Shown: positions 21,631 to 47,363 of the stretch, one piece after another
Layout of the letters: every line of letters begins with the position of its first letter
Numbering within the stretch: position 1 is the first letter of the stretch
Source of the DNA: Kibdelosporangium persicum
Lineage (GTDB): Bacteria > Actinomycetota > Actinomycetes > Mycobacteriales > Pseudonocardiaceae
Length of the DNA: 64,000 nucleotides
NCBI RefSeq assembly: GCF_013280595.1
Contig: NZ_JAAATY010000028.1
Location: 1 to 64,000, forward strand
Direction of reading: 5' to 3'
Notes under the pieces: generated by a model
What the model saw: only the letters and a program-made list of their open reading frames with translations
The model's database searches: none
What the model was told of the DNA's origin: nothing
Made by a program: the position numbers and the translations under genes

Positions 21631-24600
21631 ATGCCAACGGAAGAGCAGTACGTCGACTACCTCAAGCGAATGGCGGCCGACCTGCGGGAGAGCCGTCGGC
21701 AGCTGCGGCAGGCCGAGGAACTCCAGACCGCGCCGATCGCGATCGTCGCGATGAGCTGCCGGTTCCCCGGCGGGGTCCGCTCACCCGGGCAACTGTGGGA
21801 TCTCGTCGCCAACGGCGTCGACGCGATCTCACCGTTCCCCACCGACCGGGGCTGGGACATCGACGGGCTGTACGACAGCGATCCGGAGCGGTCCGGCACC
21901 AGCTACGTGCGGGCAGGCGGCTTCCTGCACGATGCCGCCGACTTCGACGCCGAACTGTTCGGCATCTCGCCCAGGGAGGCCGAGGCGACCGACCCGCAGC
22001 AGCGGCTGCTGCTGGAGACCGCGTGGGAAGCCGTGGAACGCGCCGGGATCGATCCGTCCTCGTTGAAGGGCAGCGCGACCGGGGTGTTCGCCGGTGTCGG
22101 CTACACCGACTACGCCTCACGGCTGACCGCGCCGCCCGAGGAGTACGAGGGCTATCTGGGGACCGGTACGTCGGGCAGCGTGGCCTCCGGCCGGATCTCC
22201 TACGTGCTGGGCCTGGAGGGACCGTCGGTGTCGATCGACACCGCGTGCTCGTCGTCGTTGGTGGCAGTGCATCTGGCCATGCACTCGCTCCGGACGGGGG
22301 AGTCCACCCTGGCCTTGGCGGGTGGTGTGACGGTGATGTCGACCGCGGCGCCGTTCGTCGAGTTCTCCCGTCAGCGCGGACTGGCCCCGGACGGCCGCTG
22401 CAAGCCGTTCGCCGCCGCCGCGGACGGCACGAACTGGGCCGAGGGCGTCGGTGTGCTTGTGCTGGAGCGGCTGTCGGACGCTCAGCGCAACGGTCATCCC
22501 GTGCTCGCCGTGGTTCGCGGCAGCGCGGTCAACTCCGATGGCGCGTCCAGCGGACTGACCGCGCCGAACGGCCCGTCGCAGCAACGGGTGATCCGTGCCG
22601 CGCTCGCCGACGCCCGGCTGTCCACATCGGACATAGACGTGGTCGAGGCGCACGGCACCGGGACCAGGCTCGGCGACCCGATCGAGGCACAGGCGCTGCT
22701 GGGCACGTACGGCCGGGACCGCACGCAGCCGTTGTGGCTCGGCTCGGTCAAGTCCAACATCGGGCACACCCAGTCGGCCGCGGGTGTCGCCGGGATCATC
22801 AAGATGGTCGAGGCCATGCGGCACGGGGTGCTTCCGGCCAGCCTGCACGTCGACCGGCCGACCCCGCACGTCGACTGGTCGATGGGCGCGGTGTCGCTGC
22901 TGGCCGAACAACAACCGTGGCCGGAGGTGCAACGGCCGCGCCGCGCGGCGGTGTCGTCGTTCGGCATCAGCGGTACTAACGCGCACATCATCCTGGAGCA
23001 GGCCCCCGAGGCTGCCCTGCCGTCACGTGACGTGGTCGCGCCACCGGTCGTGCCGTACGTGCTGTCCGGAGCGTCACCGGCCGCGGTCCGGGCTCAGGCG
23101 GCCTCGCTGCTGCCCAGTGTGGACGAACCCGGCGGTGAGCCGGTGGACCTCGCGCTGTCGCTGTCCACCACCCGTGCCGCGCTGGAACACCGAGCGGTCG
23201 TCGTCGGTGCCGATCGCGACGAGCTGGCCGCAGGGCTACGAGCCGTCGCCGACGGCGATGCCGGCGCGATCACCGGAGTCGCCACCGCGGGACGCCTGGC
23301 CGTCCTGTTCACCGGCCAGGGTGCGCAGCGGATCGGCATGGGCCGTGAGCTGTACGAGGCCTTCCCGGTCTTCGCCACGGCGCTCGACGAGGTCTGCGCG
23401 CACCTGCCAGGCGTGCGCGAGGTCATGTTCGGCGATGACACTGAGCGGTTGAACCGCACGGAGTTCGCTCAGCCCGCGCTGTTCGCGATCGAGGTGGCAC
23501 TGTTCCGCCTGGTCACCTCGTGGGGTGTGGCTCCTGACTTCCTTGCCGGCCACTCGATCGGTGAGCTGGCCGCCGCGCACGTCGCCGGGGTGCTGTCGCT
23601 CGCCGACGCGGCCAAGCTGGTGCAGGCCCGTGGCCGTCTGATGCAGGCGCTGCCCGCGGGTGGCGCCATGGTCGCCGTCGAGGCGACCGAGGAGGAGATC
23701 CGCCCGCACCTGACCGACGACGTCTGCCTGGCCGCGGTCAACGGCCCGCGTGCCGTCGTCATCTCCGGTGCCGAGGCCGCCACCCTCGCGGTGGCCGGGC
23801 GGTTCGCCGACCGCCGGACCACTCGGCTGAAGGTGTCGCATGCCTTCCACTCCAGCCTGATGGACCCGATGCTGGCCGACTTCGCCGAGGTCGCCCGTGG
23901 CCTGGTGTACGCCGAGCCCACGATCCCCGTGGTCTCCACGCTGACCGGTGACCTCGCCGACCGGCTGACCGATCCGCGGTACTGGGTCGAGCACGTCCGC
24001 GAGGCCGTCCGATTCGCCGATGCCGTCCAGACTCTGCACGGGCGCGGCGTGACCGCGTTCCTTGAGGTTGGCCCGGACGCCGTGCTCACCGCGATGGGCC
24101 GGTCCACGCGCCCGGACGAGACCGTGTTCGCCGCCGCCCAGCGCAAGGACCGCGACGAGGTCCACACCCTTGTCAGCGCACTGGGAATGCTGCATTCCCA
24201 CGGCATCCGCGTCGACTGGACCGCCTATCTCGACGGCAGCGGTGCGCGTGTTGTCCCCCTCCCGACATACCCGTTCCAGCGTCGGCGCTACTGGCTGGAG
24301 GATTCCGGCGCCGGGGAAGCGGTCACCGGTACCGAGGACGCCCGGTTCTGGACCGTCGTGGCGAAGGGTGACGTCGACGAGCTCGCCGCGGAGCTGGACC
24401 TGCCTGGTGCGCAGGCGCCGCTCGGCGAGGTTCTGCCCGCGCTCGCCCGCTGGCGCCGGGCCCGCGCGGTCGAGTCCGAAGTGGACGATCTGGCCTATCA
24501 CATTCGGTGGAAGCCTTTCACCCCCACGGCCCGTACGGCCACCGGTCGCTGGTTGGTGGTGTCCTCCGCCACGGCGAACGACTGGACCGAGGCCGCTGCG

Positions 24601-27600
24601 GCGGCGTTGTCCGGCGCTGAGGTGGAGCGGGTGGTGCTCGACGCGCCTGACCACGCGTATGTGGCCGCCGCGCTGGACGGTCTCGCCCCGGTCGACGGCG
24701 TGCTGTCGTTGGTCGCCTTGGACGAGACCGAGACCGATGGCTTGTCGTTCGGTGCCGAAGCGACCATGTCGTTGGTGCGGGTACTGGCCGAGCTGGATCT
24801 TGGCGGTCTACTGTGGACGGTCACGCGGCGGGCCGTGGCCACCGGCCCGCACGAGGCGCCCGCCTCCGCACCCCAGGCCCAGATCTGGGGTTTCGGCCGG
24901 GCCGCGGCGCTGGAGCACGCCCGGCTGTGGGGTGGTCTGGTCGACGTCCCGGCCGAGCCGTCCGACCGGGTGCGCGGGCTGCTGCGCGACGTGATCACCG
25001 GTGACCTGGGCGAGGACCAGGTCGCGCTGCGGTCCGCGGGCGCGTTCGGCCGCCGCCTGGTGCACGCCGAGCCCGTCGAACCGAAACGCACCTGGAAGCC
25101 ACGCGGCACGGTGCTGGTCACCGGCGGCACCGGCGGCCTGGGCGGCGTCCTCGCGCAATGGCTGATCGGCTCGGGTGCCGAGCACGTCGTGCTGATCTCC
25201 CGGCAAGGCGACGACGCACCCGGCGCCGCCGCCCTGCGTGCGGAGCTGGGCGACAGGGTGACCATCACCGCCTGCGACGTCGGCGACCGTGCCGCCCTCA
25301 AGGCCGTGGTCGACAGCGTCCGCGCCGACCTCCGCGCGGTGTTCCACGTCGCCGGTGTGCTCGACATCGGCCAGATCACGGCCCTGGACCGCGACCGCTA
25401 CGCCGACGTGCTGCGCTCGAAGGTCGCGGGCACGCGGAACCTCGAAGAGCTCACCGAAGGCCTCGATCTGGACGCCTTCGTGCTGTACTCCTCGATCGCC
25501 GCGTCCATCGGCAACAGCCTGCAGAGCGCGTACGGCGCGGCCAACGCCTACCTGGAGGCCGTCGCCCAGCAGCGCCGGTTCCGTGGCCTGGCGGGCACGT
25601 CGGTCGCGTGGGGCCGCTGGGGCCGGGTCGGCATGAGCGTCCACGAGGAGATCGGCCAGGTCCTCGAAGACCTCGGCGTGCCGGCCATCGACCCGGAACT
25701 GGGCATGGCGGCGTTGCAGCGGGTGCTGGACCGTGACGAGACAGCGGTGACCGTGGCGGCACTGAACTGGCCGAAGTTCGCGCCGCCGTTCCGCGCGCTG
25801 CGACCGCACCTGCTGGTGGACGACCTTCCCGAGGTCGTCGCGATGGCCGAGGCCGAAGCCCGCCTGGCCGAGGAGGGCGCCGAGGCCGCCGAAGCCTGGC
25901 GGGCCCGGCTCGCCGGAATGCCCGCGGCCGAACGGGAGCGTGTGCTGCTCGACGTGGTGATCACCCACACCTCAGCCGTGCTGGGCCATGACGGCGACGG
26001 CGTGGGGCCGCAGCAGCTGTTCACCAAACTGGGCATCGACTCGCTCACCGCTGTCGAGTTGCGTGGCCGGGTCAACGCCGAGACCGGCTTGGCATTGCCG
26101 CCGACCGTCGTGTTCGACCATCCGAGCCCGGCCGCCCTCGCCGCGCACCTGCTCGCCGAACTCGGCCCACGGGCCGGTCAGGCGCTGACGGGCCCCGCGC
26201 GCACGGAGACCCAGCGGGGGCAGGAGATCGCCGTGGTCGGCATGGCGTGCCGGTTCGCCGGCGGCAGCGACACCCCGGAGCGGTTCTGGCAGCACCTCGT
26301 CGAGGGCAAGGACCTCATCCGGGAAGTCCCGCCGGAGCGCTGGGACGCGGCCGACTACTACGACCCCGACCGCACCGCACCCGGCAAGGCCTACACCCAG
26401 CAAGGCGGGTTCGTCTCGGACATCATCGACTGGGACGCGGCGTTCTTCGGACTGGCCCCGCAGGAGGCGCGCCGGCTCGACCCGAGCTTCCGGCTGCTCA
26501 TGGAGCTGGTCTGGGAAGCGCTGGAGGACGCGTCGCTCACCGCCGAGCAACTACGGGGCAGCCGCACCGGCGTGTTCGCCGGGCTGATCGACACCATGCA
26601 GTACACGACGGTCCAGTTGCGGGCCGACGGTGACGGCGCCTCCAACGACCCGTACTTCACCCTGGGCAGTTCGCTGTCCGCCGCCGCCGGGCGGATCGCG
26701 CACCAGCTCGACCTGAACGGGCCCTGCCTGACCGTGGACACCGCCTGCTCGTCCGCGCTCAGCGCCATGCACCTGGCCGTGCAGAGCCTGCGCCGGGGCG
26801 AGTGCGACATCGCGATCGTCGGTGCCACGTCGGCGATGACCAGTCCGGAGGTGTTCGTCCAGTCCTGCAAGATGAGCATGCTCGCCGCGGACGGCCGCAC
26901 CAAGACCTTCGACGAGTCCGCCGACGGCTACGTGATCGGCGAAGGCGGCGGCGCGGTCATCCTGCGCCGCGCGCAGGACGTCGGCCCGGCCCAGCGGGCC
27001 CGCGCGGTGATCCGCGGCACCGCGACCAACCAGGACGGCCGCAGCAACGGTCTCACCGCGCCCAACCGGACCGCGCAGACCGCGGTCATCCGTGCCGCAC
27101 TGGCCGATGCGGGCCTGCGAACGGACCAGGTCGGCTACGTGGAGGCGCACGGCTCGGGCACGCCGCTCGGCGACGCCATCGAGTTCACCGCGTTGCAGGA
27201 CGTCTTCAGCGACCGCGCCGCGCCGGAACCGCTGCTCGTGGGCGCGGTCAAGACCAACGTGGGGCACACCCAGGCCGCGGCCGGGATGGCCGGCTTGATC
27301 AAGACCGTGCTGGCGCTGGAAAACGGCCGGCTGCCGGGCAACCTGCACATGACCAACCCGAATTCGGTGGTCACAGTGGACGGTCCGGTCCGGCCGGTGG
27401 AGGCCGTGCGGCCGTTCCCGGCGGACGCCGACGGCGTGCTGCGTGCGGGCGTCAGCTCGTTCGGCTGGTCCGGCTCCAATGTCCACTTTGTCCTGGAACA
27501 GGCACCCGGGGCCACGGTTTCCCGCCCTGGCCCCGAATGGCAGCTGCTCACGTTGTCCGGGCACAACGACTCGGCGTTGCGGGCCAACGCCGCCGCGCTG

Positions 27601-30432
27601 GCGGACCACCTCGAAGCCCATCCGGAACTGGAGCTGGCCGACGTCGCCTACACCACCCAGGCGGGGCGCAGTGCGCTGCCGGTACGGTCCGCACTGCTGG
27701 TGCGCGACCTCAACGATGCCATTGCTTCGCTGCGCACGGACATCACCGGTTCGGTCGTGGAGGACAACCGTCGCTTCGGCCTGCTGCTCCCGGGACAGTC
27801 CGGCGCGTGGCGTGGCACGACTCGCGAGCTGTACGACACCGAACCCGCGTTCCGTGCCGCGATCGACGAGTGCGCCGGCCTGCTCAACGGCCGGGTCGAC
27901 CTGCTGGACGCGCTCCACGGCGACGCCGCTGCTGATGATGACGGCGCTGCGGCCGATGGGGCTGCGGCGTTCGCGGTGCAGTACGCGCTGGTCCAGATGC
28001 TGGCCTCGTGGGACTTGGTCCCGGCCGTGGTACTGGGCCAGGGGAGCGGCGAGTACGTCGCCACTGTCGTCGGCGGGATCGTCTCGCTGGCCGACGGTCT
28101 CGCACTCACCCTTGACGGCACAGTGCCCGCGACCGCGTCCGACCCGGTGATCACCGTCGTCTCGCCGCGCACGGGCGATGCGCTGACTGCCGCCGAAGCG
28201 CGCGACGCCGCCCACTGGGCACGAGCCGCCGACCGCTTCGCCGATGGGCTGCTCGGCCTGGGCCGCCATGCCGAAGTCCTCGTCGAGGCCGGTCTGGGCG
28301 ACGCGGGCGCCGAGGCCGCAGGCGAACACCTCGCCGGGACGCCGGTCGTTTCCCTGCTGCCCGCCCCGTCGCCCGGCACGGACCGGCGCAGCTGGCTCAA
28401 GGCACTCGGCGCACTGTGGGAGCACGGCGTGCCGGTGGATTGGGCACGTGGCGCTGGCGAGGACCGCAGGTTCGTCACGCTGCCCGCGTACCGCTTCCAG
28501 CGCAGCCGCTACTGGCCCGAGACCACAGGGCGCGGCGAGAACTGGTCGATGGACAAGACAGCCCCCGCGAAGCCCGTCTACGACGGCCTCAAGACCTACA
28601 CACCGACCTGGCGCCGCGACAACAGCCGTCCGGCCCCGGCCACTGGTGGCCCGCTCGTGCTCTTCGCCCAAGCCGGTCCGTTCGCCGAGCGGTTCACCGC
28701 GCTGGCCACCGAAGCCGGGCACGAAGTGATCCACGCCGGCACGGAGGACCACCGGAGCCTGCTGGCGGGCATCACCGGCGCGCCGGTGCGGATCGTGCAC
28801 GCCCACGGCCTGACCGACACCGGCCTGGAAAGCGGCTTCTACAGCCTGATGCGGCTGGGCAAAGCCATCGGCGCGGAGTGCGCCGACCGGCGGGTCGAAC
28901 TGGTTTGCCTGGCCGCGAACGGGTTCGACGTGCTCGGCGGGGACGCAGGCGATCCGCATGCCGCGACCATCGCGGCGATGACGGACGCCATCGCCGCGGA
29001 GTATCCGCTGGTCCGTTCGCAGTACGCGGACTTCGCGGCGGACGGCGACCTGGCCGCGCAGGCGTTGCGGGAGCTGGACATCCTGGCCGCGTCCACTTCG
29101 GACACCGTGGACGGTGTCGGCGTCGCCGCCTGGCGCGGCGGCCGCCGCTGGGTCCGCGACTTCGATCCGGTGGTGCTGCCGGAGGCCGACGACGCCGAAG
29201 CCTGGCGTCCCGGCGGGGTCTACCTGATCACCGGCGGCCTGGGTGTGCTCGGCTTGGCACTGGCCCGGCGGCTGGCGCGGAGCGGCGCCCGGCTCGCCCT
29301 GACCGGGCGCACCGCGTTGCCGCCGCAGGACACCTGGGACACCTGGATCGCCGAGCACGGCGTGGACGACAAAACCAGTGGAGTGCTGCTGGCCGTACGG
29401 CAGTTGCGTGCTCTCGGTGCCGAAGTGCTCGTCGTGCAGGCCGACGTCAGCGACCCGGAACAGGTCGGGCCGATGCTGCGGCAGGTCCGCGAGCACTTCG
29501 GCGAGCTGCACGGCGTCATCCACGCGGCGGGCGTCGCGGGCGGCGGGCTGTTGCAGAACAAGACCGAGGAGCAGGCCGCGGCCGTGCTCGCCCCGAAGGT
29601 CGCGGGCACCCTCGCCCTTGCCGACGCGCTGCGCGCCGATCCGGTGGAGCTGCTGGTGCTCTACTCGTCCTCGGTCACGCTGACCGTCGGCGTCGGCGAG
29701 ACGGACTACTCCGCGGCGAACGCGTTCCTCGACGCCTTCGCAGCCGTGACGGCCAACACCGGCGAGGTGGCCAAGCGGGTCGTCTCGGTGGCCTGGGGAC
29801 CGTGGCAGCTGGACGCCTGGACATCGGCGGGGCTGGCGGGTTCGGCCGAACTCCAGCAGAACGCCAAGCGGTTCCGTGAGGAATTCGGCATCCCGGCCGA
29901 GGACGGCACGCAGCTGCTGTCCCGCATCGTCGCCTCGGGCGAGTCGCAGGTGACCGCGTTGCCGATCGGGCTTTCCGACGCGCTGGCCGCGTTGGCCCAG
30001 CTCGGCTCGGTCGACGCGCTGGTGGCCGGAGCAGACGGGGAGCTGGGCGGCAGGGAGCGCTACCCGCGCCCCGAGTTGCGTACCCCCTACGTGGCTCCCC
30101 GCACGCCGGCCGAGGAACGGGTGGGCGCGATCTGGGAGGACTGCCTGGGCATCGAGCGGGCCGGCGTCAACGACCGGTTCTTCGATCTCGGGGGCACCTC
30201 GCTGATCGGCATGGTGGTGATCAGCCGGGTCGCCAAGGAGTTCGGTGTCGAGCTGGCCCCGGCCAGCCTGTTCGAGAAGCCGACCATCGCCGAGTTCGCG
30301 ACGCTGTTCGGCGAGCCGGACGCCGCCGCGCCGCCCCCCGCCGCGGTGGCCGAGGACGCGTCCGCGCGCGGTGAGCGCCGCCGGGCTCGTGCCGCCAACC
30401 TGCGTAAGCGCCAGAACCGGACCGGGAAGTGA
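21631..30432 (+). CDS. Type I polyketide synthase, module 5 plus AT-deficient module 6
   Basis: ATG after AGGAG. Residues 1-33 are an N-terminal docking helix pair. Module 5: KS (35-460, intact), AT (550-890, GHSIGE/HAFH, malonyl), KR (catalytic half 1155-1330, Ser/Tyr/Asn present but LDI instead of LDD, so not B-type), ACP (1430-1510). Module 6 is of another lineage. Its KS (1528-1960) keeps Cys and both His but resembles KSs of hybrid NRPS/PKS systems (for example PERFWQHL near the start). It is followed by an AT remnant (about 2045-2290) reading GQGSGE at 2136-2141 and missing the whole substrate-binding subdomain, with no HAFH-like motif. Then come a KR (catalytic half 2525-2720, Tyr in TDYSAAN) and a PCP-like ACP with LGGTSL (2815-2895). 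The protein ends in an Arg/Lys-rich tail rather than a thioesterase. Module 6 must receive its extender from elsewhere if it is active. Confidence 0.95.
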
Positions 30433-30439: not shown

Positions 30440-33385
30440 ATGAGCATGCGGGAACGCGACACCGGCGACGACATCGCCATCGTGGGCATGGCGGGCACCT
30501 TCCCCGGTGCCCCCGATATCGCGAAGTTCTGGGCCGATCTGTGCGCCGGGCGCGACGGCATCACCAGGATGAGCCGGGCCGAACTGCTCGCCGCCGGAGT
30601 GGAGCCGGAACTGGCCGACGACCCCGCGTTCGTCCCGGCCGCCGGGCTGCTGCCGGACATCGACCGGTTCGACGCGGACTTCTTCGGCTACAGCGCGACC
30701 GACGCGGAACTGCTCGACCCCCAGCACCGGCTGTTCCTCGAATGCGCATGGCATGCCTTGGAGGACGGCGGCATCGACCCCGATCGGATCGACGGTCCCG
30801 TCGGGGTGTTCGCCGGTGGCGCGCCGAGCAGTTATCTGCTGTCGAATCTGTTGCGCGACGAGTCCGCCGTGCTCACCCACGGCCCCGGCCACCTGGTTCT
30901 GCAGAACGAGAAAGACCTGATCCCGTCCCGTCTGTCGTACGCGCTCGACCTGACCGGGCCGTCGGTGAGCGTGCAGAGTTGCAGCTCGACCGCGCTCACG
31001 GCGGTCGCCCAGGGCTGCACCAGCCTGCTGACCGGCGAATCGGACGTGGTCGTCGCCGGAGCGGTGTCCGTGATCGTGCCGCAGACCCCTGGCTACCTTT
31101 ACGTTGACGGCGGCCAGTTCTCCCCGGACGGGACGAACCGCGTCCTCGACGCGGGCGCCAACGGCAAGATCCCCGGTGACGGCGTCGGCGTCGTGGTGTT
31201 GCGCAGGCTGGAGGACGCGCAGGCCGACGGCGACCGGATCTACGCGGTCATCCGCGGCTGGGCGGTGAACCACGAGGGCAACCAGGGCCGTCAGCGGTTC
31301 GACCTGCCCGGCGTGCCGGGGCAGACCGCTGTGGTCGCCGAGGCACTGGCCGCGGCGGGCGTGGACCCGGCCGAGGTCGGCCACGTCGAGGTGGGCACGA
31401 TGGGCACACCGTTCGGCGATGTCGCGGAGATCTCGGCGCTGCAGAAGGTTTTCGACGTCGACGGCGTCGAGCGGGTCACGCTCGGCTCGACCGACGCGAA
31501 CCTCGGCCACATCAACCAGGCGGGCGGGATCGCGCGGCTGATCAAGACCGCGCTCGCGCTGCACCACGGGAAACTCCCGCCCGCGGTGAACTTCGCCACG
31601 CCGAACCCGCAGCTTCCCCTGTCCGGCGACAAGCTTTCCGTGGTCGCCGAACTGACTGACTGGCCGCGCGGCGACCGTCCCCGGATCGCGGGGGTGACCG
31701 CGCATGGCTACGGCGGCGCCGATGTGCACGTGGTCGTCGAGGAAGCCCCGGAGGAGTCGCGGGAGAGGGAAGCTGAGCGGCCGCACCAGCTGTTGGTGTG
31801 GTCGGCCCGTACGCCCGAAGCCGTGGCCGCCGCGACGTCCCGGCTGGCCGCGAGTAGTCCTGAGTGGACAGACCTGGCGGACGTCGGCTACACGCTCCAG
31901 TTCGGCCGCAAGGCGTTCGAACACCGGCGGATGACCGTGGTCTCGTCGCCGGCCGACGCGGCGGAGGCGCTGGCGTCGGAGACCCGTGTGCTCGCAGACG
32001 CCGCAACGGTCTCGCGGCAGGCGGGGTTCCTGCTGGCCGGAGTCGGCGAGCAGTACGCGGGCATGGCGGGCGGGCTGTACGCCACCGAACCGGCGTTCCG
32101 CACGGCGATCGACGAATGCGCCGAGCTGTTCCGTGACCAGCTGGGGTTCGACCCGGTCGCGGACCTGGTCGGGCCGAGATCCGCCGGCGGCGGCGACCTG
32201 GCTCGGTTGCTCGGCCGGGTGCCGGACACCGAGTCCGCCGAGACGACGACCGTCCAGCCGGGTGTTTTCGCGATCGACTACGCACTCGGCACGCTGCTGC
32301 GAGCCTGGGGAGCCGAACCCGCGATCCTGGCCGGGTACAGCGTCGGCGAGTTCGCCGCCGCCGCACTGGCGGGCAGCCTGACGCTGCCGGAGGCGACCGC
32401 GCTGGTCGCCACCAGGGCCCAGCTGATCTCGGCGCTGCCCGCGGGCGCGATGGCCGCGATCCCGCTGTCCACGGACCAGCTGACCCGGATGGCCGGTGAC
32501 ATCACCGCGTCCGGCCTGGACATCGCCGCGGTCAACGGGCCGCGGATGCTGGTGGTGTCCGGCCCGGTGGACGCGGTCGCCGAGCTGACCGAAAAGCTTG
32601 CCGCGCGGGAAGTTCCCGCCCGGCCGCTGCGTACCACGCACGCGTTCCACTCGCGGGCACTGCGCCCGGTCGCGGCCGAACTCACCGCGTGGGCCCGTAA
32701 GAACCTCAAGCCGCGCACCCCTGACACGCCCTACCTGTCCAATGTCACCGGCGTGCCGATCACCGGCGAACAGCTGGCGGACCCGGGCTACTGGGCCGAG
32801 CACATGTGCCGCCCGGTGCGGTTCGCCACGATGATCGCGCACATCGCGACGCAATGGCCGGACGCCGTACTCGTCGAACTGGGCGCGGGCCAGTCACTCG
32901 GCTCGATGTTCCGCGGGCACCCCGACTTCCCCCAGGATCGCTGGGCGCGGCTCGTCCCCTCGCTGCCCGGCGAGGCCGATCCGAGGCCCGGCACCGAAGT
33001 GCTCACCGAGGCGCTCGGCCGGCTGTGGCTGTCCGGTGTGGACATCGACTGGCGGGCCTACCACGACGGCCGTGAGCCACGGAAGACGACCTTGCCCGGC
33101 TACGCCTTCCAGCGTGAGCGCTACTGGATCGAACCGGCCGCCGGGCTGTCCGGCACGGTGGTCCCGTACGGGACACGTGCCGCTCAACCGGTGTACCTGG
33201 TCGACGGCGACGTCACCGGGACCGGCCGGGCGCTGGCCGTCCGGCTGGGCAGGGAACTGGGCGCCACAGTCGTGTTCGCGGACGAGTTCGGCGGACCGGC
33301 CGACCAGGTCGCCGAGGCGGTGCGGCGGGCGCACGGCCGCGTCGACGGTGTGCTGGATCTGACCACAGTCAAGGAGAATCGATGA
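30440..33385 (+). CDS. Free KS-AT didomain protein with KS lacking the active-site Cys
   Basis: 981 residues with no ACP. Start chosen at ATG 30440, eight bases after the previous stop; an ATG at 30446 is an alternative, and upstream in-frame codons lie inside the preceding gene. KS-like domain at about 12-435. Aligned without gaps to normal KSs, the nucleophile position is Ser182, with a Cys one residue earlier (QSCSST). The first catalytic His position is Gly319 (VEVGTMGT instead of EAHGTGT), while the second His (NLGHIN, about 357) remains. It is therefore probably not a condensing enzyme. AT domain at about 530-870 with GYSVGE (about 632-637), the Arg that binds the malonyl carboxylate, and HAFH, so transferase activity is plausible. 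The last 60 residues look like the beginning of a truncated KR fold. It overlaps the next gene by ATGA. By context it may load the AT-less module 6 or handle the special extender; this is inference. Confidence 0.85.
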   Translation: MSMRERDTGDDIAIVGMAGTFPGAPDIAKFWADLCAGRDGITRMSRAELLAAGVEPELADDPAFVPAAGLLPDIDRFDADFFGYSATDAELLDPQHRLFLECAWHALEDGGIDPDRIDGPVGVFAGGAPSSYLLSNLLRDESAVLTHGPGHLVLQNEKDLIPSRLSYALDLTGPSVSVQSCSSTALTAVAQGCTSLLTGESDVVVAGAVSVIVPQTPGYLYVDGGQFSPDGTNRVLDAGANGKIPGDGVGVVVLRRLEDAQADGDRIYAVIRGWAVNHEGNQGRQRFDLPGVPGQTAVVAEALAAAGVDPAEVGHVEVGTMGTPFGDVAEISALQKVFDVDGVERVTLGSTDANLGHINQAGGIARLIKTALALHHGKLPPAVNFATPNPQLPLSGDKLSVVAELTDWPRGDRPRIAGVTAHGYGGADVHVVVEEAPEESREREAERPHQLLVWSARTPEAVAAATSRLAASSPEWTDLADVGYTLQFGRKAFEHRRMTVVSSPADAAEALASETRVLADAATVSRQAGFLLAGVGEQYAGMAGGLYATEPAFRTAIDECAELFRDQLGFDPVADLVGPRSAGGGDLARLLGRVPDTESAETTTVQPGVFAIDYALGTLLRAWGAEPAILAGYSVGEFAAAALAGSLTLPEATALVATRAQLISALPAGAMAAIPLSTDQLTRMAGDITASGLDIAAVNGPRMLVVSGPVDAVAELTEKLAAREVPARPLRTTHAFHSRALRPVAAELTAWARKNLKPRTPDTPYLSNVTGVPITGEQLADPGYWAEHMCRPVRFATMIAHIATQWPDAVLVELGAGQSLGSMFRGHPDFPQDRWARLVPSLPGEADPRPGTEVLTEALGRLWLSGVDIDWRAYHDGREPRKTTLPGYAFQRERYWIEPAAGLSGTVVPYGTRAAQPVYLVDGDVTGTGRALAVRLGRELGATVVFADEFGGPADQVAEAVRRAHGRVDGVLDLTTVKENR

Positions 33386-34227
33386 CTTTTGTCGGTGTCG
33401 TCGGCGCCGGTGTGATGGGCACCGGTGTCGCGCAGAACCTCGCCCAGAGCGGGCATTCCGTTGTCCTGGTGGACAACGACCCGGATGCGCTGGACCGGGC
33501 GGTGACCAGGATCGAGCTGGACTGCCGGATGAGCCGGATGCTCGGCGGGCCGGAGGTCGACCCGGCGGCCGTGCTGTCCCTGATCGCCACCGGCACCTCG
33601 CTCGGCCTGCTCGCCGAGACCGAGGTGGTGATCGAGAACATCACCGAGAGCTGGGAGCTCAAGAGCGCCCTGTACCCGAAGCTCGACGCGGCCTGCAAGG
33701 CGGGCACTGTGTTCGTCGTCAACACGTCGGCGATTCCGATCACCAAGATCGCCTCGCTGACGTCGCGCCCGGACAAGGTGATGGGCGTGCACTTCATGAA
33801 CCCGGTGCCGATGAAGCCCGCGTGCGAGTTCATTCCGGGCTACCACACCAGCGAGCAGACCAAGGACACCGTCCGCGCGTTGCTGGAGTCGATGGGCAAG
33901 AAGCCGATCCCGGTCAACGACGCCTCCGGGTTCGTGTCCAACCGGGTGCTCATGCTGACGGTCAACGAAGCGGCTTTCCTCGTGCACGAAGGCGTCGCCG
34001 ACGCCGAGACGGTCGACGAGGTGTTCCGCAGCTGTTTCGGTCACCCGATGGGGCCGTTGGAGACGGCCGACCTGATCGGCGTGGACACGATCCTCTACAG
34101 CGTCGAAGTGCTCTACGAGCAGTTCAACGACAGCAAGTACCGCCCATGCCCGTTGCTGAAGAAGATGACGGACGCGGGTCTGCATGGCCGCAAGAGCGGC
34201 AAAGGCTTCTACACCTACGCGGGCTGA
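33382..34227 (+). CDS. 3-hydroxyacyl-CoA dehydrogenase family protein of hydroxy/methoxymalonyl-ACP synthesis (FkbK-like)
   Basis: 281 residues, the usual size for the family. The N-terminal Rossmann fold shows GAGVMG at residues 7-12 followed by an acidic residue for NAD binding. The C-terminal helical domain carries the family signature around HFMNPVP and the PLE segment after GHPMG. In methoxymalonyl pathways this enzyme (FkbK/AsmM type) oxidises the glyceryl-ACP hydroxyl toward the aldehyde; that role is assigned here from its neighbours: free ACP, acyl-ACP dehydrogenase and FkbH. ATG overlaps the stop of the KS-AT gene (ATGA), so it is translationally coupled to the PKS. RBS AAGGAG lies just upstream. 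A catabolic 3-hydroxybutyryl-CoA dehydrogenase is the sequence-level alternative, but the context argues against it. Confidence 0.9.
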   Translation: MTFVGVVGAGVMGTGVAQNLAQSGHSVVLVDNDPDALDRAVTRIELDCRMSRMLGGPEVDPAAVLSLIATGTSLGLLAETEVVIENITESWELKSALYPKLDAACKAGTVFVVNTSAIPITKIASLTSRPDKVMGVHFMNPVPMKPACEFIPGYHTSEQTKDTVRALLESMGKKPIPVNDASGFVSNRVLMLTVNEAAFLVHEGVADAETVDEVFRSCFGHPMGPLETADLIGVDTILYSVEVLYEQFNDSKYRPCPLLKKMTDAGLHGRKSGKGFYTYAG

Positions 34228-34266
34228 CCTGTCCGTACTTCCCCGACCAGACGAGAAAGGCCCATC

Positions 34267-34521
34267 ATGTCGCAGGATGCCCGCAACGAGATCCGCGCCT
34301 TCATCACCGCCAAGTTCCCCCGGATGACCTTCACCGACGAGCAGGACATCTTCGCGCTGGGGTTCGTCAACTCCTTGTTCGCGATGGAGCTGGTGATGTT
34401 CATCGAGAAGGCGTTCGGCACGCGCATCCCCAACGAGGAGCTCAACCTGGACAACTTCCGCACGGTGGCGCGGATGGCCGACCTCGTGCGGCGGCAGCAG
34501 TCGGCCGCGACGGCGCGCTGA
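34267..34521 (+). CDS. Discrete acyl carrier protein for glyceryl/hydroxymalonyl extender (FkbJ-like)
   Basis: 84-residue free ACP. Ser36 in GFVNSLF is the phosphopantetheine attachment site; this GF-x-NS form is typical of the stand-alone ACPs of methoxymalonyl cassettes rather than the DSL motif of modular PKS ACPs. It is expected to carry glycerate loaded by the FkbH-type protein and to keep it through the two oxidations, then deliver hydroxymalonyl to an AT. ATG follows AGAAAGG. It sits 39 bases after the dehydrogenase in the same direction and is evidently co-transcribed. Confidence 0.92.
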   Translation: MSQDARNEIRAFITAKFPRMTFTDEQDIFALGFVNSLFAMELVMFIEKAFGTRIPNEELNLDNFRTVARMADLVRRQQSAATAR

Positions 34522-34541
34522 GCGCGAGCGGGGGTGTGCAG

Positions 34542-35663
34542 GTGGAGACCTGGGACCTGGCCGAGGTCGGGCGGTTCGTCGACGATGAGGTCGCGCCGCA
34601 CGCGAACGAGTTCGACCGCGCGGAGCGCATGCCCGAGGACGTCCTGGGCCGGGTGGCCGAACTAGGCCTGTGGGCGCCGTTCCTGCCGGCGGAGTCCGGC
34701 GGCTGGGGCATGGACATGGTCACCCTTGGCCGGGTGCACGAGGAGATCGGCCGCGGCTGTTCCTCGCTGCGCAGCCTGCTGACCGTGCACACGATGGTGT
34801 CCGCGTCGGTGCACCGCTGGGGCAGTGACGGGCAACGGGAGCGCTGGCTGCGGCCGCTCGCGGAAGGCAAGGCGCTCGGCGCGTTCTGCCTCACCGAGCC
34901 CGATCACAGCGGGAGCGATTCCACCGCCGAGGGCACCAAGGCGGTGCCGGACGGCGACGGCTGGATTCTCGACGGCCGCAAGAAGTGGATCACCGGCGGC
35001 CAGCTCGCCGACCTGTTCATGGTCTTCGCGGGGACCGGCGGTGGGATGAGCGCCTTCCTGGTGGAGGCCGATCAGCCGGGCGTGGACGTGACTCCGCTGC
35101 GGCACGTGATGGGCACGCCGGCCAGCATGCTCGCCACCGTCGAGTTCACCGGCGTACGGCTGGAGGCGTCGGCATTGCTCGGCCCGCGGGGCTGGGCGGC
35201 GGGAACGGTGATGACGAGTGCGCTGGATCTGGGCCGCTACAGCGTCGCGTGCGGCTCGGTCGGCATCATCCGCGCCGCCCTCGACGCGTGTGCGGCCTAC
35301 ACGTCGGCCCGCACCGCCGGTGGCGCCGCATTGCGGGACCTGCCCCAGGTGCGGGCGATGGTCAGCAACATGGTGACCGCCCGGGACGCGGCACAACTGC
35401 TGTGCCAGCGGGCGGGCGCGCTGAAGGACGCCGGCGACCCGGCGACGATCATGGCCACGTGGGTGGCGAAGTACTTCGCGTCGACAGCGGCCGTGCGAGC
35501 GGCGAACGACGCGGTCCAGATCCACGGCGCTAACGGTTTCAGCGCCGACTATCCGGTGGCGCGGTTGTACCGCGACAGCAAAGTGACCGAGGTCATCGAG
35601 GGCAGCACCCAGATCCAGGAGCTGACCATCGCGGCCGAGGCGTATCGAGAGGTGGCGCGGTGA
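34542..35663 (+). CDS. Acyl-CoA (acyl-ACP) dehydrogenase of extender-unit synthesis (FkbI-like)
   Basis: About 373 residues. Flavin-dependent acyl-CoA dehydrogenase fold: N-terminal helices, the FCLTEPDHSGSD flavin/substrate segment, central beta domain, and the C-terminal RDSKVTEVIEGSTQIQ region that includes the usual base-containing stretch. In methoxymalonyl-ACP cassettes the FkbI-type enzyme oxidises the ACP-bound C3 unit to give the second carboxylate; assignment rests on family plus context. The start is uncertain: GTG at 34542 gives good spacing from GGGGG, GTG at 34536 is the other option, and longer in-frame extensions would overlap the ACP gene. The stop overlaps the FkbH start (GTGA). 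Confidence 0.88.
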   Translation: METWDLAEVGRFVDDEVAPHANEFDRAERMPEDVLGRVAELGLWAPFLPAESGGWGMDMVTLGRVHEEIGRGCSSLRSLLTVHTMVSASVHRWGSDGQRERWLRPLAEGKALGAFCLTEPDHSGSDSTAEGTKAVPDGDGWILDGRKKWITGGQLADLFMVFAGTGGGMSAFLVEADQPGVDVTPLRHVMGTPASMLATVEFTGVRLEASALLGPRGWAAGTVMTSALDLGRYSVACGSVGIIRAALDACAAYTSARTAGGAALRDLPQVRAMVSNMVTARDAAQLLCQRAGALKDAGDPATIMATWVAKYFASTAAVRAANDAVQIHGANGFSADYPVARLYRDSKVTEVIEGSTQIQELTIAAEAYREVAR

Positions 35664-36721
35664 CGCAGGCGGACACCGCGGCTTCGGCGAAGCCGAAGCG
35701 CGGTCGGATCAAGTGCGTGGTGTGGGACCTGGACAACACGCTGTGGGACGGCACGCTCCTGGAGGACAGTCAGGTGCGGGTCCGTCCGGAGGTCGTCGCG
35801 GAGATCAAGCGGCTCGACGAGATCGGCATCCTGCATTCGGTGGCCAGCCGCAACGACCACGAAGCGGCGACGGCCCGGCTGGAGGCGGCCGGACTGGCCG
35901 AGTACTTCCTGTATCCGCAGATCAACTGGAATCCGAAGTCGCAGTCGGTCGAACGGATCGCCAAGGCGCTCAACATCGGCCTGGACGCCATCGCGTTCGT
36001 CGACGACCAGCCGTTCGAACTGGCGGAGGTCGCGCACGCGCTGCCCGCGGTGAAGACCGTGGACGTCAGCAGGCTCGCCGCCGAACTGGCGTCCGACGAG
36101 TTCCGGCCGAAGTTCGTCACCGACGAGTCCCGTGTGCGCCGCGAGCTCTACCGCGCGGCCGCGGTGCGTGACCAGGTGGAACAGGAGTACACGGGCACCA
36201 ACGAGGAATTCCTGTCCACATTGGACATGGTGTTCACGATCAGCCGGGCGCGGCGGGAGGACCTGCAGCGGGCGGAAGAACTGACCGTACGCACCAACCA
36301 GCTGAACTCGACCGGGCGCACGTACTCCTACGAGGAACTGGACGAGCTGCGCACGTCGCCGGACCACCTGCTGCTGGTCGCGTCGCTGACCGACAAGTAC
36401 GGCGGTTACGGCAAGATCGGCCTCGCGCTGGTCGAGCGCGGGCAGCCCGCGTGGCACCTGCGGATGATGCTGATGTCGTGCCGGGTGATGGCGCGCGGTG
36501 TCGGCACCGTGTTGCTCAACCACGTGATGCGGCTGGCCAAGGAGGACGGTGCCAGGCTGCGGGCGGACTTCGTCGAGACCGGACGCAACCGGGTCATGTT
36601 CGTGACCTACGCGTTCGCCGGTTTCACCGAGATCTCCCGTGACGGCAACCAGTTGGTGCTGGAGTCCGACCTCAGCCAGATCCAGCCGTCACCGACGTAC
36701 CTGGTGGTGAACGTCGAGTGA
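35660..36721 (+). CDS. FkbH-family glyceryl-ACP synthase (HAD-type)
   Basis: 353 residues, the normal FkbH length. The HAD catalytic motif WDLDNTLWDG lies at residues 22-31, with D23 and D25 as nucleophile and acid. ASRND and the FVDDQ segment further on complete the phosphatase-like core, and the C-terminal half is the GNAT-like domain typical of FkbH. Family members take 1,3-bisphosphoglycerate, remove phosphate and place the glyceryl group on a discrete ACP, the first step to (methoxy/hydroxy)malonyl-ACP. GTG start overlaps the previous stop by GTGA, and its own stop overlaps the thioesterase start, so the three are translationally coupled. No FkbG-type O-methyltransferase is present in the window. 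Confidence 0.93.
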   Translation: MTQADTAASAKPKRGRIKCVVWDLDNTLWDGTLLEDSQVRVRPEVVAEIKRLDEIGILHSVASRNDHEAATARLEAAGLAEYFLYPQINWNPKSQSVERIAKALNIGLDAIAFVDDQPFELAEVAHALPAVKTVDVSRLAAELASDEFRPKFVTDESRVRRELYRAAAVRDQVEQEYTGTNEEFLSTLDMVFTISRARREDLQRAEELTVRTNQLNSTGRTYSYEELDELRTSPDHLLLVASLTDKYGGYGKIGLALVERGQPAWHLRMMLMSCRVMARGVGTVLLNHVMRLAKEDGARLRADFVETGRNRVMFVTYAFAGFTEISRDGNQLVLESDLSQIQPSPTYLVVNVE

Positions 36722-37467
36722 CCGCGGCGAACACCATCTCGCCCTGGCTGCCGTACGGCCGATCCGGGACCGGGACGCGGTTGTACTGCTTCCCGCACGC
36801 GGGCGCCAGCGCCGCCGTCTACGCGAACTGGCGGGACGCCGCAGGGGATGATCTGGTGGTCTGCCCGGTGCAGCTGCCCGGCCGCGCCGCGCGCGGCCGG
36901 GAGGCCGCGCACCACGACGCCAGGAAGCTCGTCAACGACGTGCTTTCCGGACTGGGCAGCGAGTTCACCGGTGACTACGCCATCTTCGGGCACAGTGTCG
37001 GCGCGTTGACCGCCTACCTGGTCACCCGGAAGATCGTCGAACAGGGCGGCCGGCCGCCCCGGCACCTGTTCGTCTCGGGCCGGGCGGCGCCGCACCTGCC
37101 CAGCACTCGCAGGGAGTTGCGTGCGCTGCCGGTCGACGACCTCGTCGTGGAACTGCGCGCGCTCGGCGGCTTCCCAGACGTGCTTCAGCGTGACCGTGCC
37201 CTGCTGGAGATGTTCCTGCCGCTGCTGCGAGCGGATCTCTCGGTGAACGAGACCTACCGGCACGTTCCCGGACCGCCGCTGCCGATCCCGTTGACGGTGT
37301 TCGGCGGGCACGGCGACCCGCGCGCCGACGACGCCGAACTGGCCGCGTGGCGGGAGCTGTCAGCGGACTCGGCGCTGTTCACCTACCCCGGCGGGCACTT
37401 CTACCTGGAGAAGCGGGCGCCGGAGCTGCTCGGCGTCATCCGCGAGCGCCTGACCGTGAAGGTGTGA
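36718..37467 (+). CDS. Type II thioesterase (editing)
   Basis: 249 residues, alpha/beta hydrolase. Nucleophile Ser in GHSVGAL at about 93; Asp in GGHGDPRAD near 202; His in PGGHFYLEK near 226. These free thioesterases remove misprimed or decarboxylated acyl groups from PKS carrier domains rather than release the final product. It is the last gene of the operon, GTG overlapping the FkbH stop (GTGA), and is followed at once by a strong hairpin. Because no modular thioesterase domain is seen in this window, a release role cannot be excluded but is not the usual function of this family. Confidence 0.92.
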   Translation: MTAANTISPWLPYGRSGTGTRLYCFPHAGASAAVYANWRDAAGDDLVVCPVQLPGRAARGREAAHHDARKLVNDVLSGLGSEFTGDYAIFGHSVGALTAYLVTRKIVEQGGRPPRHLFVSGRAAPHLPSTRRELRALPVDDLVVELRALGGFPDVLQRDRALLEMFLPLLRADLSVNETYRHVPGPPLPIPLTVFGGHGDPRADDAELAAWRELSADSALFTYPGGHFYLEKRAPELLGVIRERLTVKV

Positions 37468-41689: not shown

Positions 41690-44008
41690 TCAGTTGGCGA
41701 CCAGCCGCCAGCGGTTGTCGGGTGACCCGTTGTCCGAGTCCTGCACGGCCTGGGCACCGGCACTGCTGGAGCCGTTGAGGATGCCCAGGAGTTTGCCGCT
41801 GTTGACGTTCCGGATCTTGTACGTGCCGTCGTTGTTGTCGATCAGAGTCCACTTGTGGTCGGCGGTGCCCGTGTCGGACCACTGCAGGACACGGGCGTTG
41901 TCCGCGGTCGACATGTTCTCCACGCCAAGGACCTTGCCGCTGTTGAGGTTGCGGATCCGGACGTTGCCGCCGTCGGTGATCAGGTGCCAGTTGTGGTCAG
42001 GGGTGCCGGAGTCGTGCCACTGCAGGGCCATGGCACCGTCCGCGAGGGACATGTCCCGGATACCGAGCACCATGCCGGTGGCCGCGTTGACGAGCCGGTA
42101 GCTCGTGGAGCCGCCGCCACCGACGCTCCAGTAAACGGTGTAGTTGTAGCCGTGGGCGTCGTGGAACGCACCGAGGTTCACGGTGGTCCCATCGGCTGTG
42201 GCGGTGAAGGCGAGCGACGAGTTGCTGGTGCGGGTGATGGAGTTGACGTTGAGCGAGGGCAGCCGGTTCAACGCGGTGTTGCCGTAGTTGCCTGCCAGGA
42301 CGGCGGGGCCGTAGGTGACCGCCGCGACGTTCGGATTGTCGTTGGCGGGCCGCATGATCACCCGCATGGGCAGGCGGAGGGTGACTGTGTCGCCGGATGT
42401 CCATGTCCGGGTGAGGTTCGCGTAGCTGCCGGGAGTGGCCGTGATGTTCTGGGCCACGCCGTTGACGCTGACAGTCGCGTTGCTGGTCCAGCCGGGGATG
42501 CGCAGGCGCATGGTCCAGGAGCCGCCGACGTTGCCGCTGACGGTGAGGGTGGTCGTGTCGGCGGCCGGGTAGTTGGTGGTCTGGGTGACCGTGATGTCGC
42601 GGGCCGACCAGGTCAGGACCGACGGCGTGTAGAGATTCACCGTCAGGGTCGTGCCGTTGTGGAAGTAGATGGAGTCGGCGAGCTTGGTGTTGGTCTCCAG
42701 GCCCGTGCCCTGGCAGCACCAGAAGGTGCCGTAGTCGGTGCTCCAGTTGCCACCACCCCAGGCAGGCCCGGTGTTGCCCCGGCGGTGACCGGGGTTCAGT
42801 CCGGTGAAGTAGCAGATGTGGCCGTGGCTGTCGTTCGGGTTCTGCTGGCCGATGAGGTGATTGAGCAGCGCACGTTCGTAGTAGTCGAAATAGCCGGCGT
42901 CGTTGGGGTCGAGCAGCCAGAGTTCCCGGGTCAGCTTCAGCATGTTGTACGTGTTGCACGCCTCGGCGGTGTCGGTGTGCAGATAGGAGGCGATGGCGTT
43001 GGGGGCACGGAAGTGCTCGGCCTGGCTGTTGCCCCCGATGACGTACGTGTGCGCCGAGACGGTGATGTTCCAGGCGTTGCGGGCGATGTCCCGGTATCGC
43101 GTGGTGCCGGTGGCCTTGTACTCACGAATGGCACCGATCCACTTGGGAACCTGCGTGTTGGCGTGCAGACCGTTGAGCTGGTCACGGCCTGCGGCCAACG
43201 GGTCGAAGACGGCCGCGTGGTCGAACCGCTGCGCCGCGGCGAGCCAGCGGGAATCACCCGTCTGCTGGTACAGGTCGGCCAGCACGGCGTTCATCCCGCC
43301 GAACTCGGTTCGCAGCACGGTTTGCATCTGGCTGTAGGACAGCCTCCCGGTGCGCCAGTCCACCCAGCCGGCGAACCGGAGCAGCACGTCACGCGCCTGG
43401 GTGTTGCCGATGTACCGCCACACGTCCAGCAGGCCCGCCAGCGTCTTGTGGATGGCGTAGTAGGAGACGGCCTTGGGCGTGCCCGCTTCCAGGGCGTCCA
43501 GGTCCGACTCCGGGAACCCGGACAGGTAGCCGGCGCTGAAACCGGCCGCGGCGTTGTTGGCCTGGCACTTGGCCAGTTCGGCGACCATGTGGTTCGCTCT
43601 GTCGCGGCAGGTGGTGTCACCCAGGACTGCCCAGGCCTGCGCCCACGCCGTGAGGAAGTGCCCCTGGCTGTGGGTGCGGAACGGGAAGTTCGGCGCCTCC
43701 CAGCCGCCGAGCGGCGTGGCGCCGTTGGTCGGCAGCCGGTGGTTGGCCCGGAAGGTGTACAGCAGCCGGTTGACGTCGACGAATCGAAGGTAGGACAGGG
43801 TACGGTCCTGGTTGCCCAGCCAGCGGCCCGCGGTGAGCCGGACCTCGCCGAGGTCGAAGGGATGGGCCGAGACCCCGATGTCCGCGCGGACCGGCGGAAC
43901 GGCGGCCGCCTGCGCGGGCGTGGTGAACAGCGCCGGCGCGGCGCCGGCGACACCGGCGACGCCCAGGGCCTGAAAGAGCTTCCGCCGGTTCAACGGTGAG
44001 GACGACAT
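41690..44008 (-). CDS. Secreted GH127 (DUF1680) beta-L-arabinofuranosidase-like enzyme with C-terminal ricin-type lectin
   Basis: 772 residues. The N-terminus has a Tat-like signal (NRRKLFQALG, cleavage near ...PAQA-AA). The catalytic (alpha/alpha)6 barrel and beta-sandwich run to about 625. The GH127 zinc-thiolate site is intact: Glu349 and Cys351 (EACNTYN) and Cys431-Cys432 (FWCCQGTG) match the Glu/Cys/Cys/Cys set of the characterised bifidobacterial enzyme in spacing. Residues about 632-772 form a RicinB_lectin_2-type beta-trefoil with repeated N(S/A)..G.V/LG. motifs. Family members remove beta-L-arabinofuranose, and some GH127 proteins act on aceric acid in pectin, so the exact substrate is open. 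It lies 21 bases downstream of the GH43 gene, forming a leftward operon controlled from 46280. Confidence 0.9.
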   Translation of the reverse strand: MSSSPLNRRKLFQALGVAGVAGAAPALFTTPAQAAAVPPVRADIGVSAHPFDLGEVRLTAGRWLGNQDRTLSYLRFVDVNRLLYTFRANHRLPTNGATPLGGWEAPNFPFRTHSQGHFLTAWAQAWAVLGDTTCRDRANHMVAELAKCQANNAAAGFSAGYLSGFPESDLDALEAGTPKAVSYYAIHKTLAGLLDVWRYIGNTQARDVLLRFAGWVDWRTGRLSYSQMQTVLRTEFGGMNAVLADLYQQTGDSRWLAAAQRFDHAAVFDPLAAGRDQLNGLHANTQVPKWIGAIREYKATGTTRYRDIARNAWNITVSAHTYVIGGNSQAEHFRAPNAIASYLHTDTAEACNTYNMLKLTRELWLLDPNDAGYFDYYERALLNHLIGQQNPNDSHGHICYFTGLNPGHRRGNTGPAWGGGNWSTDYGTFWCCQGTGLETNTKLADSIYFHNGTTLTVNLYTPSVLTWSARDITVTQTTNYPAADTTTLTVSGNVGGSWTMRLRIPGWTSNATVSVNGVAQNITATPGSYANLTRTWTSGDTVTLRLPMRVIMRPANDNPNVAAVTYGPAVLAGNYGNTALNRLPSLNVNSITRTSNSSLAFTATADGTTVNLGAFHDAHGYNYTVYWSVGGGGSTSYRLVNAATGMVLGIRDMSLADGAMALQWHDSGTPDHNWHLITDGGNVRIRNLNSGKVLGVENMSTADNARVLQWSDTGTADHKWTLIDNNDGTYKIRNVNSGKLLGILNGSSSAGAQAVQDSDNGSPDNRWRLVAN

Positions 44009-44029
44009 TGTTCTCCCAAGGATCGCGGA

Positions 44030-46096: not shown

Positions 46097-46279
46097 CGGT
46101 ATCTCCTTCCAGCCAAGGGATGAAGCAACGAGCGCCTCTCGGTGTCGACAGACGGCTGTTGTGGGTGGTCAGAAAGCGTGGTGGCGGCAACGCTGTTTCG
46201 GACGACACCGGGCCATCGCGGGCGCCAGGAGCTTCGTCAGCCGTTCAGCCCGCGGCACCTGTGGTGCGCCGGGCCGTAG

Positions 46280-46293
46280 TGTTAGCGCTAACA
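46280..46293. promoter_or_regulatory. LacI-family operator palindrome upstream of GH43-GH127 operon
   Basis: TGTTAGCGCTAACA is a perfect 14-base palindrome of the GCGC-centred LacI/CcpA class. It lies in the 431-base gap between the GH43 start and the GntR gene. A -10-like TATGTT on the minus strand (46290-46295) overlaps its edge. The rest of the gap shows no convincing gene. Confidence 0.8.
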
Positions 46294-46527
46294 TAGTCGT
46301 CCGTTCGTCGTGCAGGCGCGAATCGGCTCATGGGTGGGCGAGGTCAGGGGTTCCAGGTGCAGGTAACCCCGGCCGGGCTTGCTCTAGACTCTGGACGACG
46401 ACTTCCTGATAGTCAAGACAAGTCGCACGTCTCGCAACCGGCCTGGCGCCTGGACGATCAACTGCCGCGACTGTCTACTATGGAATGTAAGGCTGACGTC
46501 GAAACTTTCGATCGCTGAACCGTGCGG

Positions 46528-47214: not shown

Positions 47215-47230
47215 CCTGCCGACCGTAGGC

Positions 47231-47247
47231 CAGACATATGATGTCTG
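47231..47247. promoter_or_regulatory. Palindrome immediately upstream of the GntR gene
   Basis: CAGACATATGATGTCTG: seven-base arms around ATG, starting 16 bases before the GntR start codon. The core ACATATGATGT recurs with one change at 47353. Probable autoregulatory GntR operator; inferred from position and symmetry. Confidence 0.55.
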
Positions 47248-47352
47248 CAATCGACGGGCACGGTGACATCCCACGTCGTCGTGCCGAGATCGTCTGTACT
47301 TCTCGCACGCCACATCTGGGGCTGGACGGATGTGCGCATCTGCTCTATACAT

Positions 47353-47363
47353 ACATATGTTGT
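47353..47363. promoter_or_regulatory. Second copy of the GntR-type motif
   Basis: ACATATGTTGT shares ten of eleven bases with the core of the palindrome at 47231-47247 and lies in an AT-rich patch (CTATACATACATATG) that could be the promoter of the GntR gene. Confidence 0.4.

Follow-up and report, generated by a model that had tools for sequence, protein, structure and literature searches.

The modules of the butyrolactol A synthase of Streptomyces sp. TP-A0882 (orf16-18 and a cassette) run full-reducing, AT-less, two KS/AT/KR/ACP and again AT-less (PMC5355916, PMC5932044), two of the last four modules being given without an AT (PMC5932044). The last AT-less module is followed by a 3HCDH-ACP-ACAD-FkbH-thioesterase cassette (PMC5355916, PMC5932044), which recurs in the locus analyzed here. 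According to the published labelling, C1-C8 of butyrolactol derive from a glycolytic intermediate, possibly as hydroxymalonyl-ACP (PMC5355916). By colinearity, the last modules would build C1-C8. If this assignment is right, the AT-less modules need loading from outside, and the adjoining GYS ATs are the obvious donors.

The zwittermicin A ATs ZmaA-AT (hydroxymalonyl-ACP) and ZmaF (aminomalonyl-ACP) both serve ACP-linked extenders and read GYS in place of GHS (PMC4207774). The free KS-AT protein described below shares their Tyr in GYSxG but lacks the MxW and GAAH/GPFH motifs given there (PMC4207774). ZmaA-AT acts in cis and ZmaF is a discrete AT (PMC6164871). OzmC, KirCII, and the disorazole-type trans-ATs are discrete ATs of trans-AT systems that serve AT-less modules (PMC6164871). 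A separate AT is likewise proposed here, but it rides on a KS, it is proposed for a single module, and the other visible modules of the line have ATs.

A free KS-AT protein downstream of an AT-dead module

The DNA analyzed, hereafter the window, covers bases 1-64000 of a 128,588-base contig of Kibdelosporangium persicum (genome 10.35 Mb). The contig starts within a PKS gene, leaving earlier modules out of view. Three PKS genes on the + strand (3-10346, 10404-21596, and 21631-30432) are followed, on the same strand, by the gene for a free KS-AT protein, a 3HCDH-ACP-acyl-CoA dehydrogenase-FkbH cassette, and a thioesterase gene (table 1). The ATG of the free KS-AT gene lies 7 bases past the stop of module 6 (30432), and its TGA overlaps the ATG of the 3HCDH gene at 33382, which bears out the ATGA coupling to the extender genes reported in a first-pass annotation of the sequence. 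All four components of a hydroxymalonyl-ACP cassette (3HCDH, ACP, acyl-CoA DH, and FkbH) stand together at 33382-36721. No O-methyltransferase gene was found beside them, the next genes scanned encoding the thioesterase and then a SARP-like regulator. Pfam detected no TE domain after ACP6.

Table 1. Features of the PKS locus, in window positions
Feature	Position	Strand	Remarks
Bimodular PKS	21631..30432	+	Module 5 (KS-AT-KR-ACP) and AT-dead module 6 (KS-remnant AT-KR-ACP)
Module 5 AT	23290..24120	+	Groups with GHS/HAFH (malonyl-type) ATs; contrast case
Module 6 KS	26221..27507	+	Active-site C, H, K, H present
Module 6 AT remnant	27760..28110	+	GQGSG at GxSxG; small subdomain with Arg and HAFH deleted
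Module 6 KR	29131..29910	+	
Module 6 ACP	30031..30270	+	Proposed acceptor
Basic C-terminal tail of module 6	30361..30429	+	23 aa; candidate docking element
Free KS-AT protein	30440..33385	+	981 aa; dead KS and live AT; proposed trans-loader of module 6
KS domain of free KS-AT	30467..31753	+	Inactive; fold kept in model; Ser182 for Cys, Gly319 for His, Asp for Lys
AT domain of free KS-AT	32003..32944	+	Intact: GYSVGEF, Arg659, HAFH
C-terminal tail of free KS-AT	33140..33382	+	Possible KR remnant; basis weak
3-hydroxyacyl-CoA dehydrogenase family gene	33382..34227	+	Cassette
Free acyl carrier protein	34267..34521	+	Proposed extender donor
Acyl-CoA dehydrogenase family gene	34518..35663	+	Cassette
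FkbH-type HAD enzyme	35660..36721	+	TIGR01686, 292.1 bits (cut-off 146.65)
Discrete thioesterase	36718..37467	+	Possible release or editing enzyme

In the butyrolactol line, module 7 is a full module whose KS is active, and two more modules lie behind it, whereas in the window module 7 is a KS-AT alone with a dead KS, and neither a complete module 7 nor modules 8 and 9 were found. The line also departs from trans-AT PKSs, in which ATs are absent from modules throughout and supplied as discrete proteins: module 6 alone is AT-dead among the visible modules, and the AT sits in a KS-AT protein.

Pfam matched the free protein to KS at residues 10-260 and 268-385 and to AT at 530-810. No ACP or KR domain was detected at E up to 0.001, so that the absence of an ACP, noted from the sequence, stands. 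So does the claim of a dead KS joined to a live AT. In the KS, the nucleophile motif is VQSCSSTAL (Cys181, Ser182), HGTGT has become GTMGT with Gly319 for the first catalytic His, and the Lys of KxxxGH is replaced by Asp; the second His (357) is retained. The AT keeps GYSVGE with Ser634, Arg659, and HAFH at 734-737. The first-pass annotation had read the KS Cys as lying one residue early. Cys181 and Ser182 were read correctly, but comparison with active relatives (VQSYCSTSL) reveals two substitutions, Tyr181 to Cys and Cys182 to Ser, and no shift.

AlphaFold models the free protein as a complete KS-AT didomain (pLDDT 89.6, pTM 0.85). The top Foldseek match is the KS-AT of ClbI (36% identity), and further matches include loading-module KSQ-AT didomains such as those of GfsA and pikromycin. 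In KSQ, which belongs to the loading module, Gln occupies the position of the KS Cys, and a KSQ-AT didomain is thus a KS fold without catalytic Cys fused to a live AT. The free protein resembles it in these respects but has Ser182 rather than Gln, has also lost the first His, lies downstream of the last module, and carries no ACP. The KR-like remnant first reported at its C-terminus is a tentative assignment: residues 918-973 form a beta-alpha-beta segment in the model, and the top BLAST match covers 62 aa at 37% (E 1.3e-4, database of eleven proteins). This tail is unmatched in the Lentzea-type and Allokutzneria loci.

By its residues, module 6 mirrors the free protein, with an active-looking KS and a dead AT. 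The C, H, K, and H of its KS are invariant in a 26-row alignment (A3), and AlphaFold models a KS-AT didomain with a truncated AT (pLDDT 85.5). Although the nucleophile Ser is lost, part of the large subdomain remains; module 6, first described as AT-less, is therefore AT-dead instead, its AT being nonfunctional by residues.

Distribution and co-occurrence with the state of module 6

Free homologs were collected by a protein search of 200 genomes of the family and by a contig scan that yielded 78 loci; since the scan rested on two peptide patterns, with the best 80 of 354 matches retained, its counts are lower bounds. We found at least 20 distinct free members in at least 18 genomes, window included. 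These are 17 named loci (L069-L084 and L090), the window, G085, and G034, other free matches in the 200-genome sample being taken as repeats of the same records. Loci cut by contig ends (L086 and L092) or without a module-7 call (L104, L107, and L109) were left out of these counts. For L069, L083, L084, and L096, the state of module 6 comes from separate readings of the loci. The hosts comprise Amycolatopsis, Lentzea, Sciscionella, Allokutzneria, and, by record title, Nocardia sp. NRRL S-836. Among 394 genomes sampled across the class, five matched at E 1e-215: the genome that contains the window, which has the free protein, and four others, whose proteins are modular.

All 20 free proteins combine a dead KS with a GYSVGEF AT. 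Ser182 is present in each by residue count, and position 319 is never His (Ser in 8, Thr in 6, Asn in 3, Asp in 2, and Gly in 1), whereas His357 is retained throughout, as are Tyr633, Ser634, Val635, Phe638, Arg659, His734, and His737 of the AT. A condensing KS using a shifted Cys is ruled out: the three Allokutzneria-type proteins read VQAHSATSL, without Cys at the motif, and the first His is lost in all 20, so that the condensing residues are out of place in every free homolog. Within genera, omega of the dead KS is 0.05-0.21, which is 1.4 to 3.5 times that of KS6 and far below 1, and that of the free AT is 0.10-0.19. The dead KS is thus under purifying selection.

Eighteen of the 20 free proteins follow a module 6 that is AT-dead or AT-less and precede the 3HCDH/ACP/ACAD/FkbH cassette, the association for which the first-pass annotation had proposed a genome search. 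Upstream of these 18, module 6 retains an AT remnant in 15 cases (among them L069, where the contig starts inside the remnant and KS6 is not covered) and has no AT in three. Around the other two, both from Sciscionella, about 17-20 kb on each side contain no match to PKS domains or to the cassette; the protein can thus be kept without a module 6 nearby, a point against the loading role proposed below. Genes for a diol dehydratase reactivase and an ornithine cyclodeaminase-type protein lie near one of them (L075).

Twenty-one of the 200 genomes were read for the state of module 6 and the AT motif of module 7. A query made of KS6 and the AT remnant matched 12 of the 200 at E 1e-215. All 12 carry a module-7-type KS-AT with GYSVGEF, free with a dead KS in ten and modular with an active KS in two (G132 and G148). 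Below this threshold, G023 and G061 have a module 6 without AT, and their modular KS-AT reads GYSIGEF and has an active-looking KS. A GYS(V/I)GEF AT in module 7 thus goes with the lack of a working AT6 in 14 of 14 genomes read and a GYS(L/V)GEY AT with a full-length GYSLGEY AT6 in seven of seven, counts that are not independent because the genes adjoin and are co-inherited under common descent. The latter seven come from eight further protein-search matches (49-52% identity) whose upstream region was read; for the eighth, G068:C40, KS and AT were not found in the 7,250 bases upstream. A pattern search recovered HAFH in at least one of the seven full-length AT6.

Among the named loci, at least 18 have an intact GYSLGEY AT6 followed by active-looking modules 7 and 8, including loci of Herbidospora, Nonomuraea, Acrocarpospora, and some Amycolatopsis. 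In L111, the AT6 match is split and both AT motifs are present. Within the stretch examined, the cassette is visible in 16 of the 18, and none of the 18 has a free dead-KS protein. Close relatives with an intact AT6 therefore do not carry it there, and the idea that it is an extra copy beside an intact module 6 was discarded.

Ancestry of the free proteins

At least five named loci (L085-L089), from Actinophytocola, Streptomyces hygroscopicus, S. olivaceus, and S. zagrosensis, combine an AT-dead module 6 with a module 7 that has an active-looking KS and a GYSVGEF AT. In four of these (all except L086, which is cut by a contig end), the line continues with modules 8 and 9, the latter AT-less, and then with the cassette and the thioesterase gene, as it does in G023. 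The butyrolactol order of modules and cassette was also found in L088 taken with L151. Among the matches listed for four butyrolactol-type genomes (the 868-aa orf28 of the published butyrolactol cluster apart), there is no further free KS-AT beside modules 7-9.

A tree of 65 AT domains unites the 13 GYSVGEF ATs, whether free or modular, in a single clade (SH-aLRT 100) within the GYS clade, beside the module-7 ATs of all-cis lines with intact AT6; the GHS ATs fall outside. A quick KS tree groups the KS6 of the free and butyrolactol types (support 99). It had also set the free KSs beside all module-7 KSs, a placement replaced in a more careful tree, where the free KSs are monophyletic (100/100) and sister to the Actinophytocola module-7 KSs (87/87), the union of the free KSs with all five butyrolactol-type KSs being supported at just 67/65. 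These trees place the free protein as a former module 7 cut down to KS-AT.

We favor, with some reservation, a history of reciprocal loss that turned modules 6 and 7 into a single split module. Excision of the small subdomain would have left module 6 without its AT; the AT of the neighbor would then have served it in trans, the state seen in butyrolactol-type lines; finally, the neighbor would have lost its KS activity, KR, and ACP and become a dedicated loader, with the dead KS as docking platform. If this history is right, assembly lines could become shorter in this way and yet keep a rare extender.

Proposed loading of module 6 in trans

Taken as a whole, the locus is probably explained by a KS-scaffolded trans-loader that moves hydroxymalonyl from the free ACP to ACP6. 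In the scheme that we infer for substrate, transfer, docking, and release, the FkbH cassette would charge the free ACP with hydroxymalonyl, which the AT of the free KS-AT would take up and hand to ACP6; the KS of module 6 would condense and its KR reduce. The dead KS would be kept as a dimeric scaffold and platform for docking of ACP6, an interaction possibly inherited from the former handover of the chain from ACP6 to KS7. That ACP6 docks on the KS-AT dimer within reach of the AT is the least certain step. Chain release would come after module 6 and may be the task of the discrete thioesterase. With one hydroxymalonyl unit and a malonyl-type AT5, the predicted product has an acyl end with a 2,3-diol, the KR5 hydroxyl lying two carbons further on. 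Service in trans to module 6 and its link to the FkbH cassette, proposed in the first-pass annotation, gain support from conservation, co-occurrence, and phylogeny, all at the level of sequence.

That annotation had left the unit as malonyl or hydroxymalonyl. Hydroxymalonyl is favored because the AT belongs to the GYS clade, not with the GHS ATs, and because no O-methyltransferase gene adjoins the cassette. The free protein has the sole GYS AT in the visible part of the line, and the Tyr before the nucleophile (GYSxG), characteristic of ATs for ACP-linked extenders, is present in 20 of 20 free proteins. Before the YASH motif, however, it reads PxR instead of MxW, and it has HAFH, as in malonyl ATs, where ZmaA-AT has GAAH. 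ACP6 might then still be loaded in trans, with malonyl from malonyl-CoA, the cassette supplying some other step or lying idle. Malonyl-CoA ATs, ZmaK-AT among them, carry HAFH (PMC4207774), and PxR retains one Arg of the CoA-type RxR motif. We nevertheless regard a malonyl supply as unlikely, given that the AT groups separately from the GHS ATs that occur in the same clusters and that 18 of the 20 free proteins adjoin the cassette. The window moreover offers the cassette no rival AT, because its other ATs read GHS or AHS, the modules before the contig start being out of view.

Two further explanations give the AT a lesser part or none. A KS with Ser for Cys might act on the ACP6 chain, in release, lactone formation, or proof-reading, the AT being secondary. 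The constancy of Ser182 and of the second His, the purifying selection on the KS, and the missing TE domain after ACP6 would all suit such an enzyme; its first His, however, has given way to five different residues, the AT residues are intact in all 20 proteins, and the fixed Ser may be plain inheritance because the free KS clade has one origin, which makes this activity quite improbable. Hardly credible is a functionless, decaying pseudo-module, with module 6 skipped or served by a neighboring AT. The loss of KR and ACP, and the ATs apparently common to several modules in butyrolactol-type lines, would fit decay, but both domains have low omega, 20 distinct proteins keep an open frame and all AT residues, and the dead-KS protein never accompanies an intact AT6 in the 18 named loci.

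Searches of the open-access literature turned up no KS-AT with a dead KS that acts in trans. The arrangement had been put forward as undescribed, which holds as far as those searches reach, except that trans-AT loading itself is a known category, of which this is a new form; the noteworthy part is the conserved reciprocal inactivation with readable intermediates. Loading of module 6 by the free KS-AT would be a conserved natural means of supplying a cis-AT module with an ACP-bound extender by way of an external protein, and might be turned into a tool for modules whose AT is null. It would also give a testable account of the hydroxymalonyl-type supply to AT-less modules of the butyrolactol type, the living intermediates showing how modules are split and re-used.

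A basic tail with an RGxRRR core follows ACP6 in all 37 loci whose module-6 end was read, and these include all-cis lines. The N-terminal stretch is acidic in modular module-7 proteins and in the Allokutzneria type; in window-type and Amycolatopsis free proteins it is near neutral, which counts against an acidic/basic pairing of this stretch with the tail. Also weighing against the loading scheme, some constraint remains on the AT6 remnant, with an omega of 0.10-0.32. It is not always the more relaxed domain: in Amycolatopsis, its omega is 0.099 and that of the free AT 0.150.

Module-6 KS variants and upstream modules

Two Amycolatopsis clusters (L102 and L108) carry a module-6 KS in which VEAEREGT replaces the VEAHGSGT of the others. 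The Cys motif is retained, and the AT of module 6 is intact in both clusters. The altered motif suggests that these KS domains are possibly inactive.

The AT of an upstream module in the window carries AHSAGE and HASH, as opposed to GHS and HAFH, and these replacements suggest that its substrate may be different. The loci L155 and L156 of genome G023 together form a line of the butyrolactol type, with an AT-less module 6, an active-looking KS7, and a GYSIGEF AT7. This line has an extra upstream module whose AT is nearly gone, being reduced to a 46-aa match.

Coordinates of the features described (relatives numbered by locus)
Feature	Location	Position
Module-6 KS with altered motif	L102, Amycolatopsis	5520-6773
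Module-6 KS with altered motif	L108, Amycolatopsis	4542-5795
Upstream-module AT	window	12069-12908
Second free KS-AT copy	L075, Sciscionella	10001-12895
Second free KS-AT copy	L076, Sciscionella	10001-12874
Run of predicted glycoside hydrolases and esterase	window	41690-61155

Further KS-AT proteins and GYSLGEY lines

Two Sciscionella species each harbor a second copy of the free KS-AT. No matches to PKS domains or to the 3HCDH/ACP/acyl-CoA dehydrogenase/FkbH cassette were found within about 17-20 kb on both flanks of either copy. The genes near the L075 copy include a diol dehydratase reactivase. A related KS-AT in genome G057 (L027) has an active-looking KS and the GYSLGEY motif, in an open frame of just 1119 aa, which may represent either a short protein or a break in the frame. 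Three GYSLGEY modules and the same cassette are encoded by L109, a metagenome contig labelled Ardenticatenaceae.

Window genes outside the PKS cluster

Outside the PKS cluster, the window encodes a run of predicted glycoside hydrolases and one esterase, with ricin-type lectin domains.
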